Part shown: positions 42,806 through 54,819 of the stretch, one piece after another
How positions within the stretch are numbered: the stretch's first letter is position 1
Layout of the letters: every line of letters starts with the position of its first letter
DNA from: Spiroplasma turonicum
GTDB taxonomy: Bacteria > Bacillota_I > Bacilli_A > Mycoplasmatales > Mycoplasmataceae
Reading direction: 5' to 3'
Assembly: GCF_001262715.1 (NCBI RefSeq)
Contig: NZ_CP012328.1
Location: forward strand, 186,001-250,000
DNA: 64,000 nt
Translations under genes and position numbers: made by a program
Notes under the pieces: model-generated
The model's database searches: none
What the model saw: only the letters and a program-made list of their open reading frames with translations
Told to the model about the DNA's origin: nothing

Positions 42806-43023
42806 TATTAAATCTTATACCAATTATTAATTTTATCTTATGTGCAACAATGGCAAAATATATTTTTAAAAAAACAAATTAATTTTTCTTATTTAAAATA
42901 AATTTTTTTATTGGTATATAATAAAAATAATATTATTAATACAGAAATTTTTATATTAATAATTATTTATTTGATTGTGTTTTGACGATTACATAAATAT
43001 TTTTTTTAGTGAGGAGTAATAAA

Positions 43024-44829
43024 ATGCAAAGCGTTGAAGATAGAGTAAAATTTTTTTCAAAAGATAAATTAAAAAAATATAGAGAATTATTAGCGGGGTC
43101 AATTAAAGCTTACCCAGGTTTATTTACTATTTATGTTTTATTAGCTATTACTGATACAAGTCTTTTTTCATCTATGTCAATTGTAATTGCCAATTTAATT
43201 AAAAATATTACAAATGAAGGTGGAAAATCATTATTTGGTTTTACAATGTATTGATATAGTTGAGTTGCAGTTGGGTGGTCAATGATTTTAGCATATGCAG
43301 TTACTGAATTCTTTTTTAATTATGTTGGTGGTATTTGAACTAGAAAAGTTGAAATATGACTAAGGGTAAAGTGTTTAAAAGCATTAGTTGATGTTGATTT
43401 AACTTTTTATTCAAAAAATCAAATTGGTAACTATATGACAAAAATCATTGGAGATTCACAAGGAGCAGCCGATGGACTTAATGAATGATCAAATAATTTG
43501 ATATACATTATAATAATGTTTATTGTAATTAACATTATTATGTTTAGTTTAAATGTTGAAATTGCAGCAATAGCAATTGGTGTTTTTGTATTGTTATTAA
43601 TTATCTCATTAGTTATATACTTTCAATATAGAAAAGCAACAATTGTATCATTAGATTATAAACAAAATTTAGATGCTGATAATACTGATAGATTAATGAA
43701 TATAAGATTGATTAAATCAAGTGGTACAGAATTATCTGAGTTAGAAAGAATAAAAGATTTTAATAAAATATATGCAAAAAAAATTAATAAAACTGTATGA
43801 TTAGGAACTTTATTACTTATATTTGCAAACTTTTTAGGTTGAATCTTACCAGGTTTAATTACTATTTCAATAATTTTTATGTACAATGATACTTATAATT
43901 TAGCTCAAATTACTGCTTTAGTGATTCCGTTTGTGTCAACAGTTACAATACTTGCAGGAGCTATGTTTCTATTACCGATAATTTTAAGAGCACTATCTGT
44001 TTCAATGAACTGTAACTGAAGGTTGAATTTTATTTACTCACAAAAAAGTATTATAATTAAACCCTCAGAACCAATCAAAGTTAATCAAATCAACAAAATT
44101 GAATTAAAAAATGTTGAGTTCATATACCCTGAGTCTCCTTCAAAATTAATACTTCCTAAAACATCATTGGTGTTTGAAAAAGGTAAAAGTTATGCTTTTG
44201 TGGGTGAAACTGGTAGTGGTAAATCAACAATTGCTAAACTTTTATTAAGATTCTATGACCCTTATAAAGGTGACGTATTAATAAACGACATAAACTTAAA
44301 AGAAATAGATATGCCAAGTTATCTGGATAAAATTGGTTATGTTGAACAAGAACCACAAATTTTATATGGAACTGTAATGGACAACATCAGGTATGCAAAA
44401 TTTGATGCAACTGATGAAGAAGTAATCGAAGCTGCTAAAAAAGCTAGCCTTCATAATTTTATTCTAACCTTATCTGACAAATACGACACAATTCTTGGAG
44501 AACGCGGTTTTATCTTTAGTGGGGGCCAAAAACAAAGATTAGTTATAGCAAGAATGTTTTTAAAAAACCCTGAGCTGCTAATTCTTGATGAAGCTACAAG
44601 TGCACTTGATAATATTGTGGAAAAAGAAGTTCAAGCACAGTTAGATAAATTAATTATAGGTAGAACAACTATTATAATTGCACACAGATTATCTACTATA
44701 AAAGATTGTGATCAAATAATTGTTTTAGGTGGAAATGCAGGCGGAATAGTACAAGTAGGTACTTTTGAAGAACTAAAAAACTTAGAAGGACATTTTAACA
44801 AACTTTATAAAGCTGGATTAATGGGATAG
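43024..44829 (+). CDS. ABC exporter half-transporter (permease-ATPase), first of a pair
   Basis: The 601-residue protein joins an N-terminal type-I exporter membrane domain of about six spans (to residue 340) to a C-terminal ATPase with Walker A GETGSGKST, Q-loop VGYVEQEPQILYGTVMDNI, signature FSGGQKQRL, Walker B LLILDEATSALD and H-loop IAHRLSTI. Such MdlA/MdlB-like pairs work as heterodimers that export lipids, peptides or drugs; the substrate is not apparent. GAGGAGTAATAAA is seven bases from the ATG. Many TGA codons encode Trp in the membrane part. It is 11 bases from its partner. Confidence 0.94.
44170..44226 (+). repeat. 57-base exact repeat in Walker A region, copy 1
   Basis: This stretch is identical to 46032-46088 in the neighbouring paralogue. 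Shorter identical tracts are 44333-44360 with 46198-46225 (28 bases) and 44579-44618 with 46444-46483 (40 bases). Confidence 0.9.
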
Positions 44830-44840
44830 GGGGTATTATA

Positions 44841-46709
44841 ATGAGTTCGAAATATGAAGAAAAAGCAAAAGCTGAAATAATTGAAAAAATTAAACAAGAA
44901 CGTGAACAACATGGTTATTTATACTTATTATGCTCATATTTAAAACACCATCCCTGATCTGGATTTATAATAATTTTCCTTTCTATAATTGGGAGCGGGA
45001 TGGCAGTATCCATACCTCTAATGATGCAACAAACTCTTAACTGTATAAGTTTACTTGAGCAAGGTGAAGAAGCTGCTAAAACTAATTTTTTAATTTGAAA
45101 GTTTGGTTGACAAGAATGAGTATACTTACAATTATCAGTTTATGTGGTTTTAGCTATAATAATTTTTATTAGAAATATAACAGTTGGTAAGTTGGGAAGA
45201 GACATTGAGGTTCATTTAAGAAATGAAACTTTAAAATCATTGTTAAAGCAAGATATCTCATATTACAGTAATCAAAAAATTGGAGAAATTTTAACAAAGA
45301 TTGGTGCTGATACATGGTTAATTGGAGAACAAACTAGAATTATACCAACAATGATGTTAATGGCTTTATTTAACTTTATTGGTTCTTCAGTTGTTTTAGT
45401 TGTAGTTGATTATAAATTAGGTTTAATTGCTATGGGATTTGTTACTATAGGGTTAATATTGATGTTCATATTTTTAAAAAGAGTAAAAAAATGAGTAACA
45501 AAATTAAGAACCACAATAACATATGTTAATGGTGATATAACTGATAGAATTGGAACAATTAGATTAATTAAGGCATCGGGAACAGAAGTATATGAAAAAA
45601 ATCGTTTTAAAGAAATACATAATGAATTCTATCATACTGTTAAGAAGTTTTTCAAAAGATTAAGCTTCGTTATGACAGGGGCATTCACAACGGTTATGGC
45701 AGTACAACTTGTAGTCTTGTCAAGTGCATATGGTTTTTATCATAATGACAACCACAAGTTAATAATCATTTCAACAACATTTATTGCTGGTTTAGGAACT
45801 ATGACATCACCAATTTATCTTTTATTAAGATCTGCATTTGGTTATATGATGGCAAATGAATGTACAAGAAGGATTTATCAAATTACTAGTTCTAAAGCAA
45901 GATTTGATTCTCATTATTATAAAGGAGAAGGAAAGTTCGTAGAAAAATTGGATAAGGATATTATCTTTAAGGGTGTATCATTTAATTACCCTGAAAAGCC
46001 AGAGGTCAATGTTTTACCTAAGTTTGATTTTGTGTTTGAAAAAGGTAAAAGTTATGCTTTTGTGGGTGAAACTGGTAGTGGTAAATCATCTATAGCTAAG
46101 TTATTGTTAAGATTTTATGATCCAACTGAAGGAGAAGTTTTAATAAATAACGATACAAATTTAAAAGATGTTCATTTAAAATCTTTTTTAGATCTTGTTG
46201 GTTATGTTGAACAAGAACCACAAATAATGTTTGGAACAGTTAAAGAAAATATAATGTACACAAACCCAAATGCTACAGATGAACAAGTTATAGAAGCCTC
46301 TAAAAAAGCAAACTTGCATGATTTAGTAATGAGCTGACCCAATGAATATAATACAATTCTTGGTGAACGTGGCTTTATGTTGAGTGGTGGACAAAAACAA
46401 AGACTAGTAATAGCAAGAACATTTCTAAAAAACCCAGACCTATTAATTCTTGATGAAGCTACAAGTGCACTTGATAATATTGTAGAAAAGGAAATACAAG
46501 TTGAATTAAATAAACTTATGAAAAACAGAACAAGTATATCAATAGCACATAGACTTTCTACAATAAAAAATTGTGATCAAATCATAGTTTTAGCAAGAGG
46601 AAAAGGTGTTGTGCAAATGGGTACTTTTAATGAACTAAGAAATAAAAAAGGTCATTTTAAAGACTTATATGATGCAGGTCTTATGAAAGAAGAACAAGTA
46701 CAAAAATAA
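44841..46709 (+). CDS. ABC exporter half-transporter (permease-ATPase), second of a pair
   Basis: The 622-residue paralogue of the preceding gene has the same layout: six-span membrane domain, then ATPase with GETGSGKSS, VGYVEQEPQIMFGTVKENI, LSGGQKQRL, LLILDEATSALD and IAHRLSTI. It has a longer, Lys/Glu-rich N-terminus (SSKYEEKAKAEIIEKIKQER) before the first span. Both nucleotide sites look intact, so the heterodimer is not of the one-degenerate-site type. GGGGGTATTATA precedes the ATG. TGA encodes Trp at many positions. A terminator follows. Confidence 0.94.
46032..46088 (+). repeat. 57-base exact repeat in Walker A region, copy 2
   Basis: Identical to 44170-44226 in the upstream paralogue, while flanking codons differ. 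Confidence 0.9.
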
Positions 46710-46789: not shown

Positions 46790-47629
46790 ATGTTTTTATT
46801 AAAAAACAAGGAAATTGAAGCTAAAATTGTCATTGACAAACAAGGGCTTGAGGTTGTAAGTTTAAAACATAATGGAATAGAAGTATTGTATCAACAAGAT
46901 GGTTCTTGAGGAAAAACTTGACCAATCTTATATCCAATATGTGGAAGTGTTAATGGGCCTTACTTGCATAATGGTAGAGATTATCACACACCAAGACATG
47001 GATTTTTTTCGCAAATTAAAGATTGAACAATAGACTCACAAACTAATGAAAAAATAGTTTGTCATTTTAAAAACCATTATCAATTCCAAGATATTTATCC
47101 ATTTGAGTTTGAAATAACTATTACTATATTATTAGATAATAATAAATTTATTTATTTATTTGATGTAATGAATATTGGCAAAGAATTAATGTCTTATTCA
47201 TTCGGTCATCACCCTGCATTTAAAGTTGAAAAAGATTCGAAGGTTATATTTAGTAATGAACAATTTTACTCTTCTAAAGCAGGTAAAGGTAATACATATG
47301 TACCTGATCATAATAAAATAGCTGCAAAAGAAATAGTAATCTCAGAAGTTGATTTTAGTGACTCAAAATCTTTATTATTTGACCAATTTAATCTTGATTC
47401 AATTACATATTTATATAAAGATAAAACTATTAACATGTATTTTGATAAAAACCCTTACTTTGTAATATGAAAAGCAACTAACGATATGGATTTTGTATGC
47501 TTAGAACCTTATTGAGGTCTGCCTGATTTAGAAACTAGATTAGGTAATAGATATAGAGATAAACTTGGTATGAAACAACTTGAGTGTGGTGAAAGCGAAG
47601 TTTTAACAATGACTTTAGAAATCAATTAA
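46790..47629 (+). CDS. Aldose 1-epimerase family protein
   Basis: The 279-residue protein belongs to the galactose mutarotase-like superfamily of beta-sandwich enzymes that interconvert sugar anomers. WPILYPICGSVNG, TPRHGFF and SFGHHPAFKV carry the conserved Arg/His and catalytic His, in the short LacX/YeaD-like form rather than the classic GalM form. Several TGA codons encode Trp, including WGKTWP. The ATG follows GTAGGTGATTAT. It is a single-gene unit between two terminators. Confidence 0.87.
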
Positions 47630-47660
47630 AGAAACACATTTTATAATGTGTTTCTTTAAT
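47628..47660 (+). terminator. Long perfect hairpin terminator after the epimerase gene
   Basis: A 13-base perfect stem (47628-47640 with 47645-47657) encloses TTAT. The stop codon lies in the left arm. The T run after it is short, but the arm itself ends in TTTCTTT. Confidence 0.8.
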
Positions 47661-47748: not shown

Positions 47749-49242
47749 ATGGAATATGTTTTATTCAATAATAACAAAAATTTAAAAGGTATAGTAGATG
47801 AAGTTTTTGTTAAAGACGGACAACCAGTAAAAAAAGGGCAAAAATTAACTACCATTTCTACTCAAGTTGATAAAATTGAAATAATTTCACCAATTGATGG
47901 TGTAATAAAAAATATTTTTATAATCGAATCTTTAATAGTTTCTTGTAATGATAAATTATTTGAAATAGTTACTCATCAAGAACTTTTAGAACTTGCTAAG
48001 GAACCAAATAATTTAAATGATACTTTAAAAGAGGGTTTAGAAGAGTTTAATTATTTTGATAGCTATGATGATGTTGAATCAAACCCCATAATGGAAGAAT
48101 TGGAAAAAAAATTAGAGCAAACAAATCAGGTTATAAACAATAAAAATAAAAACTTAAATTTCAATAGACAAGATTTACAAGAAACAAAAGTATCTGATGC
48201 AGCTTATTTAAATGACTTTATAAAAAATAAAAAAGTTGAAATAAATGATTCAATTACTCAAGAGCTAAGTTATTTCACAAAAAACACCTCATTAGACATG
48301 GAAGAAAATGTTTTTAAGGAAAAAACAAGCAATTTTTTATATCAACCTTTAAATGAAGCAAAAGATGAAGAGAAAAATTTGTTTCAAGAAGAAATTGATA
48401 AAGAAAAAGAAAAGTTTAATGAACTTTTAAAACAAAATGCAAATATTTCAGATATTAACAAAAGTTATGAAGAATCAATAACTGATGATAAAAAAGATTA
48501 TTTAAATAAATTAGACACTTTAAATAATGACTTTTTACAAAAAAAAGAAAATATTGAATCTAATGAATTTTCTAAAACATCGAAACTTAATAATTTAGAA
48601 AAAGCGCAAGTTGTTGAAGAAAAAGATGATTTGTTTTATGAAAAACCATCAAATCTTAATAAAACTGAAAATTTAAAAAAAGATTTAGACGTAAAAAAAA
48701 TATCTAAATCATCAATCAGTTTTACTGCAAATCTTAACAGTTTATTAAATTTATATGATATTCTAGAAAAAGCATTTATAAAAAGAAATCAAAAATTAGA
48801 AATATCATCATTGTTAATTAAAGCTACTTTAATTGCCCTAAATGAATCAAATATAGAAATTAAAGATAATAAAATAGCATTGATTCAAAAAATGGCAAAA
48901 GCATTTAATAAAAAAGAACTTACTTATATTGAAAAATCAAGCACAATATTTGATTTTCAAAACTCACTTAATAATTTAGAAACACTTAATGAAGATTTAC
49001 AGTTTAAAATATTTGATTTTATTAACTTTAATAATAATATTTTAAATTTTAATTTAAATGATAGTTCAAGTTTTAGTATTTCTTTGAATTCATTATGTCA
49101 AATTGTTAATAATGATGGATCAATTAGTACTTCTTTAAATGCAAATATAACTTTTGACTCTAATTCAATTACATATGATGAAATATCAAATTTTATTGAT
49201 ATATATATTGATTTAGTTGAAAACCCTGGCTACTTAATTTAA
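47749..49242 (+). CDS. Lipoyl-domain protein with degenerate 2-oxoacid dehydrogenase E2 fold
   Basis: The 497-residue protein has three parts. Residues 1-75 are a biotinyl/lipoyl-like domain (VFVKDGQPVKKGQKL then VDKIEIISPIDGVIKNI) with Lys42 at the lipoylation position. Residues 80-315 are polar, Lys/Glu/Asn-rich and likely flexible or coiled. Residues 320-497 follow the E2 acyltransferase pattern, from ISFTANLNSLLNLYDILEKAF and LEISSLLIKATLIALNES to EISNFIDIYIDLVENPGYLI. Where active E2 has FDHRxxDG, this protein has FDSNSITY, so catalytic His, Asp and Gly are lost. No pdh genes are adjacent; yhaM follows after 14 bases. GTAAGAGGGACTAGAT precedes the ATG. Parts 1 and 3 are inferred by eye. 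Confidence 0.75.
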   Translation: MEYVLFNNNKNLKGIVDEVFVKDGQPVKKGQKLTTISTQVDKIEIISPIDGVIKNIFIIESLIVSCNDKLFEIVTHQELLELAKEPNNLNDTLKEGLEEFNYFDSYDDVESNPIMEELEKKLEQTNQVINNKNKNLNFNRQDLQETKVSDAAYLNDFIKNKKVEINDSITQELSYFTKNTSLDMEENVFKEKTSNFLYQPLNEAKDEEKNLFQEEIDKEKEKFNELLKQNANISDINKSYEESITDDKKDYLNKLDTLNNDFLQKKENIESNEFSKTSKLNNLEKAQVVEEKDDLFYEKPSNLNKTENLKKDLDVKKISKSSISFTANLNSLLNLYDILEKAFIKRNQKLEISSLLIKATLIALNESNIEIKDNKIALIQKMAKAFNKKELTYIEKSSTIFDFQNSLNNLETLNEDLQFKIFDFINFNNNILNFNLNDSSSFSISLNSLCQIVNNDGSISTSLNANITFDSNSITYDEISNFIDIYIDLVENPGYLI

Positions 49243-49256
49243 ATAGAGGAGTATGT

Positions 49257-50222
49257 ATGATTAGTGACTTAAATTTAGAAGAAAAAATTGTAAACTTAAC
49301 TGCAAGAATTGAAAGAGTTGTTTTGTCTACCGGAAATAATGGATTGAATTATCTTATAGTTCATTTAATTGATAGAACTGGGCGTATAGAAGCACGTTTA
49401 TGGAATGTCAATGATGAAGATATTGCTCAACTGAAAAGTGGGTCAATAGTAAGGTTAGAAGCTAACATAAATAGTTACAGACATCAATTACAATTAAAGA
49501 TTAACAATTATGTTATCATCCAAGAAGAAGAATTTGATGATTATAAAATTACTCATGATATGTTTTCTATAAATGCTCCTTTAAACATTGATGATAAATT
49601 TAAAGATCTTATTGCTTTTATTGAAAACATTAAAAATGAAAGTTATAAACAAATAACGATAAGATTATTAAAAAAATATGAAGAAGAATTTAAAACATTT
49701 CCAGCAGCGGTAAGTATCCATCATAATGTTATTGGTGGATTATTTTGACACAGTACTTCATTATTAGAAGCAGCAGTTTCACTTAGAAAAGTTTATTCAT
49801 TCATTGAAGTTGATTGAGAATTAGTTTATTGTGGTGCAATCTTACATGATTTGGGTAAAGTTTTTGAACTTGACGGAAAAAATGCAAGCGAATATACAAC
49901 TATTGGTAAATTAATTGGCCATATATCTATTGGAAATAATTTTATTTGTAATGCAGCAAAAGAATTAAAATTAGATGGTGAAGATGTTTTAAAACTACAA
50001 CATGTAGTTCTTTCAAGCCATGGTAAAAATGAATTTGGTTCGCCAGTTGAACCATTATTAATAGAATCAATAATTATATCATCGTTAGATAGCCTTGACG
50101 CAAGGTTATACAGAGTTAATGAAGAAATAAAAAAAGTGTCTCATAATAATTGGACACCAAGAATACTATCTGAGGACGGTAGAAGTTTTTTAAGACATTA
50201 TAACAAGTCAAAAAAAAATTAA
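49257..50222 (+). CDS. yhaM: 3'-5' exoribonuclease YhaM-like (OB-fold plus HD domain)
   Basis: YhaM-type nucleases degrade RNA and single-stranded DNA from the 3' end. The 321-residue protein has an N-terminal OB-fold nucleic-acid-binding domain (LIVHLIDRTGRIEARLWNV) and an HD domain with SIHHNVIGGLFWHS, CGAILHDLGKVFEL, IGHISIGN and VVLSSHGKNEFGSPVEP, matching the YhaM family. Two TGA codons encode Trp. AGAGGAGTATGT precedes the ATG. Its stop overlaps that of hit on the other strand by four bases (TTAA). Confidence 0.93.
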
Positions 50223-50667: not shown

Positions 50668-50696
50668 AAAAAAAACCTTTATTAAAGGTTTTTTTT
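50668..50696 (-). terminator. Terminator of the lipoprotein pair
   Basis: AAACCTTT and AAAGGTTT pair closely around ATT, with eight A residues on the plus strand that give the minus-strand transcript a U run. It overlaps the stop codon of the second lipoprotein gene by two bases. Confidence 0.8.
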
Positions 50697-52521
50697 ATTC
50701 ATCTTTGTCATCTTCGTTTTTAATGTATTTACCAATTTCATTATATAATCCTGCATAGTACACAAGATCTTTATCTAAATATAATGAATATAGAGAAGTT
50801 TTTGCTAATTCTGAAGAAGCTGAGTCGTTTGATACTAAATATTTTAATTGATTAATTATTGAATTTCTTTTTGATGTATCTTTTAATAGTTCTTGTACAT
50901 CTTTAGAGTGTAATGAACTATTAATAGGTCTATTTCAAATTTCTTTAAACTCATTTTCATTGTTAATAGATTTTCCTAATTTAATTTTCTTTCTTTCTTC
51001 AGTATTTTTACCAATTACTTCATAAGTATTTTGATCATCAACACCTGAACCACCTAATAATTCAATCATATAGATAGGTAATACAACTACTATTTCTTCA
51101 TAATTACCATTATCTTTATCTGTAAAAGAGTATTTTTCAGGACTTTTAAAAACTAGTCCGGCACCATTATTCCATTCTTTAATAGCAGATTCATAATTTG
51201 CACCTGATATCGGTGAATCACCAATAGATGTTCCATTATTATATAATGTAAATCCTTTAAATCCACTTTGTCCAAAATAAGGGTCGTATGAATTACTATC
51301 ATTAGTTATAGGAGTGTATGCTGTACTTTCACTTGGCTCATCTCTCACAACTTTTTCATCAAGACTTGATAAAGCTTCTATAAGATCTTTAACGCCTTTT
51401 TCAAAATTATTAATAATTTCACCAGTTGCAAAATTTAAAACACCCTTAAGTTTTTTTCCAATAACTTCTTCAAGTTTTAAATCTTTTTTAGTGTTATCAT
51501 ATTTAACTGTTCAAACCATTTTTACATTTGTTTTTAGTTTTTCATTTGTATTATTACTTCATGATTGTGTTTTTGAAAAAATAGGAGAAGAAGTGTTTAA
51601 GAAGATATTATTTCCATCCCCAGCTGATTTGGTTTTAAACATATTTGCATCAAGAAATGATTTTGTTAATAAATTTGCATTTATATCTTCAAGAAGTTTA
51701 GATTCAAAGTATTGTTGAAATCTTAAATAAAGAGCAGTTTTTGAACTTATTCTTGTTTTAACTTCATCTTTTACTAAGTAAAACTTTGTAACATTTTCAT
51801 CTTTTACATCTTCGCTATACTCAAGTGTTAAATCTTTAATGTTAGGAAGATGAGATTTTAATGTTTGATTTTCATCTAAACCTTCAATTATTTCTCCAGA
51901 ATATTTTCAAGGAGTGGGAGTTTTTTCACCTGTTCTTTGAAATGAAACAGTTTTATAGTCACTAGATTTTACTTCAAAACTATCATTTTTTGGGTCACCT
52001 TTATCATCTAAAGTGCTCACAGTTGTATCATTTACAATGTTTAAATCATACAAATACTTAGCTTGTGTATTGAAATCAAAATTTTCATTACTTGATAAAG
52101 CTTTTGTATATTCTAAGAATAAATTATCTTCTGCAATTGAGCGAGTATCAGATGAGTATTTTTGTTTAAATTCTTGTTCAATACTTCCATCGTCATTTTT
52201 TTGATATAAATCTGTAAAGTTTAAGTCTTTAAACAATTTATTTGTTGAGTCAAAACTATATTGTTTTGAAATTAATTCATTTATCATGTTTACAACAATT
52301 GATGTAGCGTCATCAGTACTGAAAAATGAACCAAAGTCCATATTAGCAACTGCTGCATCACCCGCAAGACTAGCTATAAGTTTTTTAGCTAACTCTGGGT
52401 TCAATTTAGGTTTATCTGGTCTAACATCTCAAGAATTATCCTTATCACCACATGCAACAACAGTAGATGAAGTTGAGGCAACTAGACTAATAGCAGTTAA
52501 TCATCCTATTAATTTTTTCAT
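50695..52521 (-). CDS. Large surface lipoprotein (second of tandem pair)
   Basis: The 608-residue protein begins MKKLIGWLTAISLVASTSST and ends its signal in VVAC, a lipobox with Cys24, so it should be lipid-modified and exposed outside the membrane. The mature part starts GDKDNSWDVRPDKPK, is hydrophilic, and is rich in Ser, Thr, Asn, Asp and Lys without membrane spans. I do not recognise a family; such lipoproteins are typical of Spiroplasma and Mycoplasma surfaces. Five TGA codons encode Trp. AGAGGTGATAAATA precedes the ATG, whose first base is the last base of the upstream stop. Confidence 0.88.
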
Positions 52522-54788
52522 TATTTATCACCTCTGTAAAAACTATAATTTTTGTAGTAGATATTTATAAACTCGACATTTAAATAGTTTAATGACATTG
52601 CTTGAACATCTTCTGTTGCTTTATCTCCAGGCTTTCAAAACTTTTTATTTGCAATTGATTTAAGATTATCATCAAATAAGTCTTTGCCTTCAATTATTCT
52701 TTTTGGATAATCTGATTTGTCTGATTGTTTTTTAATTTCTTCATTTCTTTTGTTGAATTCATTTACAAAAGCATTACTTGGTGCTGAATCAACAATTGAC
52801 TGCACTGTATTCAACATACTATTGAACTTATTTTCTAATGCTGTTGCTATATCTTCATCTCCAGCAGATTCATCTTTTTTAAACTCAATAAATTGATTAA
52901 TAAAATCTTTTTGATCTGAAACTTTGTTTTTACCATCAATACTAATAGTTTTAAAATATTCAAAAACAGATGTTGATCAACTATATTTTGAAACATCAGT
53001 TGATGATTCGATTTTTACTCAATCCTTAACTTCACTCATTGCATCAAACGAAGTTGCTGCACCATCAATACCTTTTATAAGTGATGTATTAGTTAAATAT
53101 TTTAGATATCTATTTGTAATGTTTTTATTTAAATCATCATAATATTTAACACCATTAGATAATTCCACTTCAGTTTGTATATAAGCAATTTTTTCGTTAT
53201 TTGTTAATTTATGAAAGTTTTTAAAGTTTTCTAATTCTTTACGAGTATCAGTAGATATTAGACCATCTTCAAGACTTTTTGTTGTTTTTAAACTTTTATC
53301 TTTACTAGTTGAACTTTCTTTTAAATATTTATAACCATCAATATTAATTATATGCAGTCCTGAGGTATCTATTAACAATAATCTACCATCACCTAAAATA
53401 GCATAAAATTTAGAATCTACATTATTGGCATTTCTTGAGAAAGTTTGAATTACTTTATCATCGATTTTACTGATATCTTCATTTGATGACAAATCAACGC
53501 CTGAACTTTTATCTCTTAGAACATAATCATAAACCGCGTCTCTCAAATCTTGAGTGTAGTCAGATGAATTAGATAAAGTTAGTAATTTATCATACTTTTT
53601 AATTGTTGCTTTACCATCAAGTAAATTAGTTATTGTTCCCTCTGACATATATCTTCTTCAAATATTATCTGAAGAACTATCAGATGGTTTAACTGATTTT
53701 AATAATAAACCAATTTCAGCTTGGTACTTTGTATATGTTCTATTTTCAAAGCTTTTTCAAGATACACCATCTTCAAATTTGTGTTCATCAGCAAATGGAA
53801 TTGTAATTTCACTAATTGCTAATGGAGATTGTGAAGTATATCATTTATCTAAAAAGAATCTTTGTGAATTACTTATAAAACCTTTTCTTGATGCAGCATC
53901 TGTTGATGAAAAAGTTGTTAAATCAACAGGCACATCATATTTTAAATCTCTAGTATTTTCAATAGTTGTTTTTAAATTATTTCAAGTTGAAATATCATTA
54001 GTTTTATTCATAACTCATTCTTTGCTATCTTTTGTTGAGTTATATATTTGATTTAAAATATTCTTATCTGAATCTAATATTGATTGAACTTTAGATTCAT
54101 CATCTCCTGCTGCAACTAAGTTTTTGTATTTTTCTTGAACTGTTGTTTTTGAAACTCAAGTTACACCTTGTTGATCTGTGTTTAATAAAACATCTAATAA
54201 TGTTTTTGATACATTGTTAGAAGAGTCATTTAATAAAATATCTGCTTTGTATTTTTGTTCAAGCAAGTCTCTATCCATATCTTTTGTATCAGTTTGATAT
54301 ACACTAAACTTTTCAACAAGCATTTTTTTTCATTCGTCTTCTCATTTACCTGCATAATCGTTTTTGTATTTATCTTTTTCATTTTGAATTTGTCTATCAA
54401 CATTTGATGATAAAGTTTTTCATCTCTCAGTAATTATATTTTCTAAATTGTAAATATAATAGGGGTTAGTTTTATCAAGCTTATATTTAGCACTTGAACC
54501 TTCTCCATAGTTATTTTCAGAGTTTGCTACTAATGATAAATTAAACATTTTTAGCAAATCAATAGAGAATTTTTCTCTATTTTTTACACCTGAACTTGCA
54601 TTAATAAGTTTATTTAATACATCTTTAGCAGTAATATCTGCTTTCCCGTCCAGTTTTTCTAAAAAATGAACCAAAATTGAATTGCCATCGGCGTCTTTTT
54701 GGTCATATTTAGAATCACATGCAACTACTATTTGTGCAGTTGTTGCTATCAACGAAACAGTTGAAAGCAATGTTAGTAATTTCTTCAA
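52521..54788 (-). CDS. Large surface lipoprotein (first of tandem pair)
   Basis: The 755-residue protein has a signal MKKLLTLLSTVSLIATTAQI with lipobox VVAC and Cys at residue 24. The start is TTG (54786-54788), chosen because AAGGAGTG lies eight bases upstream; a TTG at 54815 would add nine residues but lacks a ribosome binding site. The mature part is polar, with helical Lys/Asp/Ser-rich segments and several Trp from TGA (for example KWEDEWKKML). The C-terminus lacks membrane spans. It shares composition and layout with the next gene, probably an old duplication, and the two are translationally coupled. Confidence 0.88.
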
Positions 54789-54819
54789 ATCATTCACTCC
54801 TTGATTTTTTATCAAGATA

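Follow-up and report, generated by a model that had tools for sequence, protein, structure and literature searches.

A conserved E2-derived protein with lost active centres in Spiroplasma turonicum, a candidate scaffold of helical cell architecture

The E3-binding protein of eukaryotes (E3BP; protein X, PDHX) is a paralogue of E2 whose E2 catalytic centre no longer works, and the fibril protein (Fib) of Spiroplasma derives from a nucleosidase. Mammalian and fungal pyruvate dehydrogenase (PDH) cores include the E2-like E3BP (PMC10156792). The trimers of E2 cores are joined by a knob, the C-terminal helix H7, and a socket composed of H2, H7 and the beginning of H4 (PMC9681731). The poles of Spiroplasma carry a dumbbell core (PMC9710875; PMC5289999), and since the proteins that make the tapered pole have been called unknown (PMC9710875), a vacant structural role exists there.

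The protein analyzed here, designated pE2-Y, is encoded in a window of 64,000 nucleotides of the Spiroplasma turonicum chromosome (1,261,374 bp), by an ORF of 497 aa at 47749-49242 (+) that is open with translation table 4. The features of the locus, in window positions and with the evidence in brackets, were as follows:

47625..47660, no strand assigned: inverted repeat of 16 pairs between an aldose-epimerase gene and pE2-Y, a possible terminator (sequence)
47749..49242, + strand: pE2-Y, a paralogue of E2 that has lost both active centres (ORF call, orthologue searches)
47749..47988, + strand: N-terminal lipoyl-type barrel-sandwich domain, residues 1-80 (PF00364, alignment, AF2, dN/dS)
47860..47871, + strand: hairpin turn T38-Q39-V40-D41, at the site of Asp-Lys in lipoyl domains (alignment, AF2 model)
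47989..48699, + strand: variable charged linker, about residues 81-317 (no E3-binding domain detected, lengths, dN/dS)
48700..49239, + strand: C-terminal E2 catalytic-domain fold, about residues 318-497 (AF2, structure matches, hhalign)
48730..48765, + strand: H2 helix segment, residues 328-339, a conservation peak (column entropy; role from PMC9681731)
49153..49176, + strand: active-site motif degenerated from FDHRxxDG to FDSNSITY, residues 469-476 (alignments)
49216..49239, + strand: C-terminal knob VENPGYLI, residues 490-497 (column entropy)
49257..50222, + strand: yhaM (OB fold and HD domain), starting 14 bp past the pE2-Y stop codon (ORF, domain scan)

Other genes were also observed in the surroundings. 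Two adjacent ABC exporter half-transporters (ABC_membrane and ABC_tran) lie at 43009-46709. Two long lipoprotein-like ORFs occupy 50695-54815 (-), and in many relatives such ORFs likewise adjoin yhaM and a HIT gene; the one of the two that was scanned gave no Pfam match. In many g1 genomes a 235-aa protein, also with no Pfam match, is encoded between trmFO and pE2-Y (e.g., L035 6046-6753, -).

Domain architecture and the two lost active centres

Residues 14-73 matched PF00364 (lipoyl/biotinyl) with 27.4 bits, above the cut-off, and the AF2 model of the N-domain (pLDDT 91.6) matched biotinyl/lipoyl domains with Z 12-14.5. The original prediction had regarded Lys42 of this domain as the retained lipoyl lysine, which proved to be a register error of two residues. 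In the ungapped alignment of PdhC (..VETDKVNSDIFAP) with pE2-Y (ISTQVDKIEIISP), V40 occupies the column of the lipoyl lysine and K42 stands two residues later, while in the AF2 model the turn comprises residues 38-41 and K42 is the first residue of the following strand. Both alignment and model ruled out K42 as the lipoylation site. No lysine was present in this column in the alignment of the orthologues (0/29), and several of them carry R, S or T in place of K42. Moreover, the search for a lipoate ligase found none in two genomes with an intact pE2-Y, G053 and G057. Because the lipoyl lysine is missing throughout the family and intact orthologues occur where this ligase was not detected, the suggestion that the protein is perhaps lipoylated, or senses lipoylation, found no support.

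An RND/HlyD membrane fusion protein was also considered and rejected, as the head is a single compact barrel and the C-domain is that of an E2. The HlyD/RND matches were weak and limited to the barrel and the segment after it (RND_mfp, E 1.3e-8, below the cut-off, spanned only the barrel and the start of the linker), and the sequence showed no hydrophobic N-terminus that could be a membrane anchor or signal.

The linker joining the two domains was long, as had been claimed, and also variable and charged, and the orthologues ranged from 479 to 856 aa. The peripheral subunit/E3-binding domain (PF02817) was absent from the S. turonicum protein at E up to 10 and from three scanned orthologues at E up to 1.

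The C-domain of the S. turonicum protein alone matched PF00198 weakly (E 0.0099, below the cut-off). Among the orthologues, 14/29 members matched this family, with E as low as 1e-38; the close orthologues aligned with PdhC in a profile-profile comparison (hhalign, 97.8%, E 1.3e-12), and their profile found solved E2 domains (best E 2e-6). The AF2 model (pLDDT 87.7, pTM 0.84) matched E2 cores with Z 18-20.5 and, in most cases, an rmsd of 2.4-3.3 across some 180 residues. Since the sequences and profiles of the relatives and the AF2 model all match E2, the homology is firm, and the assignment of residues 320-497 to the E2 fold was confirmed.

The replacement of FDHRxxDG by FDSNSITY, with His, Asp and Gly missing, was likewise verified by the alignments. 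A catalytic His hidden by a shifted alignment was ruled out, as none emerged with mafft or hhalign, and none was present in any orthologue examined. Both E2 active centres are absent from pE2-Y, because the His, Asp and Gly of the motif and the lipoyl lysine are gone. The fold, the homology and the loss of the motif agreed with the pseudoenzyme that had been predicted, and the identity of pE2-Y as an E2-derived protein with lost active centres is near certain.

Family, selection and conserved assembly elements

Relatives were collected by whole-genome searches; scans of genome contigs returned no relatives with query P0001 and five named records with query A4. Orthologues of pE2-Y were found in 20/20 searched genomes of the genus and in g6, g7, g8, g9 and g12. 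A PdhABCD operon with a normal PdhC was located elsewhere in the S. turonicum genome, as was a lipoate ligase gene, away from pE2-Y. A second E2-like protein of this genome, pE2-L (964 aa, G000:C1:153593-156487; L054:4594-7488), has a lipoyl-like head that lacks the Asp-Lys, and its E2 domain carries DQRIIDAAEAG. Its change of His to Gln was invariant in 20 aligned sequences, including those of f9, and was also seen in another 18 genomes.

In a maximum-likelihood tree, pE2-Y (100) was the sister of pE2-L (96), and the two joined with support 92, separately from PdhC, a topology that is consistent with one duplication and loss of the His, followed by a second split into pE2-Y and pE2-L. As judged from sequence, the E2 paralogues of the pE2-Y family are old and under selection, which is a larger finding than the one first stated. 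A separate observation concerned the PdhC of one g1 genome (L088, G009:C1:139833-140513), which grouped with g5/g2 and not with the other g1 sequences included, as if it had been transferred.

The dN/dS of the N-domain was 0.03-0.24 in most informative pairs and 0.11-0.18 in the clade of the window. That of the C-domain was 0.03-0.18 outside this clade and looser within it (0.46-0.55, with dS near 1), and the linker gave 0.27-0.55 in most informative pairs. In the pairs of lowest divergence, from PDH-less genomes, both domains of pE2-Y gave 0.24-0.9, values that rest on few changes, and yhaM gave 0.1-0.25 in the same pairs, with one at 1.0.

Within the C-domain, the last eight residues had a mean column entropy of 0.83 bits vs. 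2.13 for the rest, H2 and H3 being the next lowest. The ENPGYLI ending that had been noticed at the C-terminus was therefore real and belongs to the most conserved stretch of eight residues in the domain. Because conservation peaks at the knob and H2, the assembly elements appear to have been retained under selection despite the loss of the chemistry, and from this conservation we infer that pE2-Y oligomerises.

Distribution and competing explanations

The preferred explanation, to which we give a probability of about 0.5, is that pE2-Y is a duplicated E2 that lost both centres and became a scaffold for Spiroplasma cell architecture. In this account an E2 (dihydrolipoamide acyltransferase) was duplicated in a Spiroplasma ancestor to give pE2-Y, which lost the lipoyl lysine and the catalytic His, Asp and Gly. 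The remainder is a small barrel-sandwich head, a long flexible arm and a C-domain of the trimer-forming kind, in which trimers are joined via the C-terminal knob-and-socket. The fold, the ancestry, the loss of both active residues, the selection and the co-occurrence with Fib and SMreB are shown by the present data. Either alone or together with pE2-L, the protein may assemble into a multivalent non-catalytic scaffold, the heads of which would dock a partner, and this scaffold would serve the helical cell architecture and not pyruvate oxidation. A non-catalytic oligomeric scaffold, as such, is moderately likely; the lost active residues and the conserved assembly elements favour the non-catalytic E2-like scaffold of the original prediction. 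A part in helical architecture is suggested by the distribution described below.

Sixty genomes of the family were compared, with Fib called at E < 1e-60. Fib and pE2-L coincided in 60/60 (both in 42, neither in 18; two g11 copies were divergent), and pE2-Y was intact in 39 of the 42 Fib-positive genomes. PdhC was retained in 16 of the 18 Fib-negative genomes, all without pE2, with G049 showing a fragment in the search. Six Fib-positive genomes had no intact PdhC (G025, an 85% complete MAG, G048, G053, G054, G056 and G057); pE2-L was retained in all six and pE2-Y was intact in five. In G054 (g8; L163/L124), pE2-Y was broken, PdhC and E1 were absent and lipoate ligase was not detected. The loss of PDH is recent in several g8 genomes, among which G048, G056 and G057 were named. 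In f9, which includes a Spiroplasma endosymbiont of Nebria riversi, strong MreB occurred with pE2-L in G067 and G078, neither was present in G073 and G083, and G088 was decaying; PDH and MreB were reduced or lost together in the latter three. Strong MreB without pE2 was found in G068, and divergent MreB without pE2 in the f5 genomes.

A dependence of pE2 on PDH was not supported by these data, and the pE2 families tracked the fibril/MreB cytoskeleton instead. The dissociation of pE2 from PDH is the stronger part of this pattern, and the tie of pE2 to the cytoskeleton the weaker one. The latter link is a correlation only, in which the genome counts ignore kinship and the Fib-negative genera perhaps reflect one ancestral loss.

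A more specific form of this explanation, in which pE2-Y and pE2-L would form a non-catalytic E2-type assembly with a structural role in the Spiroplasma skeleton or the polar (dumbbell) organelle, is tentative and rather unlikely. A metabolic cage protein would then have become a cytoskeletal one, much as Fib did from a nucleosidase. For the ribbon fraction of S. eriocheiris that is insoluble in Triton, 16 proteins have been listed, of which none bears the name of an E2 (PMC5289999, Table 1), and pE2 as an abundant ribbon component is disfavoured since neither pE2 was named among them. E2 terms did not occur in two other Spiroplasma papers (PMC5988712, PMC9663586), and no published description of pE2-Y or pE2-L was found in the literature searched, which lay outside subscription journals and preprints.

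Among the alternatives, pE2-Y (and pE2-L) could be dead E2 subunits of the PDH core, tuning its size or its loading with E3 or E1. The mammalian and fungal precedent (PMC10156792), the match of the model to E3BP (6h60, Z 18.9), the presence of PDH in most pE2 genomes and the conserved knob and H2 of pE2-Y point in this direction. Nevertheless, pE2-Y has neither a detected E3-binding domain nor the lipoyl lysine, and the pE2 genes lie away from pdh. In addition, 16 PDH-positive, Fib-negative genomes have no member of the family, and members do occur where an intact PdhC or a lipoate ligase was not found. We consider this alternative unlikely, and the binding of E1/E3 that had been suggested for pE2-Y was unsupported: PF02817 was not found in it although PdhC has the domain, and neither the absence of the family from the 16 PDH-positive relatives nor its occurrence in relatives without intact PdhC fitted such binding.

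To a similarly low degree, pE2-Y might scaffold or regulate the product of the gene that follows it, the 3'-5' exoribonuclease YhaM. The position beside yhaM and away from the pdh genes held as originally described: yhaM was the next gene in 35/38 neighbourhoods viewed, with the gap of 14 bp in S. turonicum, and in g8 pE2-Y stands between yhaM and a phosphohexomutase-type gene that directly precedes yhaM in the f9 and f5 genomes. However, yhaM was not seen beside the pE2-Y present in G018 and G019, about 1.3 kb is inserted between the two genes in G053 (L064 5970-7251), yhaM is retained in many genomes without pE2-Y, and pE2-L is not linked to yhaM. As the linkage was not seen in two genomes, an operon partnership with yhaM was rejected as the sole reason for the upkeep of pE2-Y.

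Less probable still is a role as a sensor, in which the former active-site channel of pE2-Y or pE2-L would continue to bind CoA or acyl-CoA. The channel motifs of E2 that pE2-L retains and its invariant DQR would fit such a role, as would the Asp of the motif, which most g8 orthologues of pE2-Y retain (YNE.IIDITEA), but in the clade of the window the motif is gone, along with some of the channel segments. That pE2-Y is a decaying gene without present function is very improbable: the fast-evolving C-domain in the clade of the window and the broken copy in G054 would agree with decay, but not the intact frames in 39 genomes, the low dN/dS of the N-domain in most pairs or the invariant tail residues. 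A lipoylated E2-like sensor, as first proposed, has the lipoyl fold of the head in its favour and can be given hardly any credence, as no orthologue has Lys at the lipoyl position and G053 and G057 keep pE2-Y with no lipoate ligase found.

Comparison with known systems

Inactive paralogues of E2 are familiar from eukaryotic PDH cores; the present case is a bacterial branch of E2 that has lost both chemical centres and is split into two conserved families. If the scaffold of helical cells proposed above were true, the pE2 proteins would be candidate proteins for the Spiroplasma pole, and Spiroplasma would provide a second example of cell architecture built with a former metabolic enzyme.

PdhC (E2p) of S. 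turonicum (G000:C1:542705-544060) has its domain order, C-terminal knob and ancestry in common with pE2-Y. In contrast to pE2-Y, it has the lipoyl Lys, the E3-binding domain (PF02817, 1.9e-13) and DHKVIDG, and it is encoded in the pdh operon beside E1 and E3.

The sister family pE2-L (roughly 890-1075 aa) resembles pE2-Y in the altered lipoyl-like head, the long linker and the dead E2 domain. It differs in its much longer linker, its strongly conserved E2 domain with the invariant DQR and the lack of a link to yhaM, and it is also present in f9 genomes with MreB but no pE2-Y.

The eukaryotic E3BP, like pE2-Y, has kept the core fold (6h60) with an inactive E2 domain. E3BP retains E3 within the PDH complex (PMC10156792), whereas pE2-Y has no detected E3-binding domain and no lipoyl Lys, and its distribution shows no dependence on PDH.
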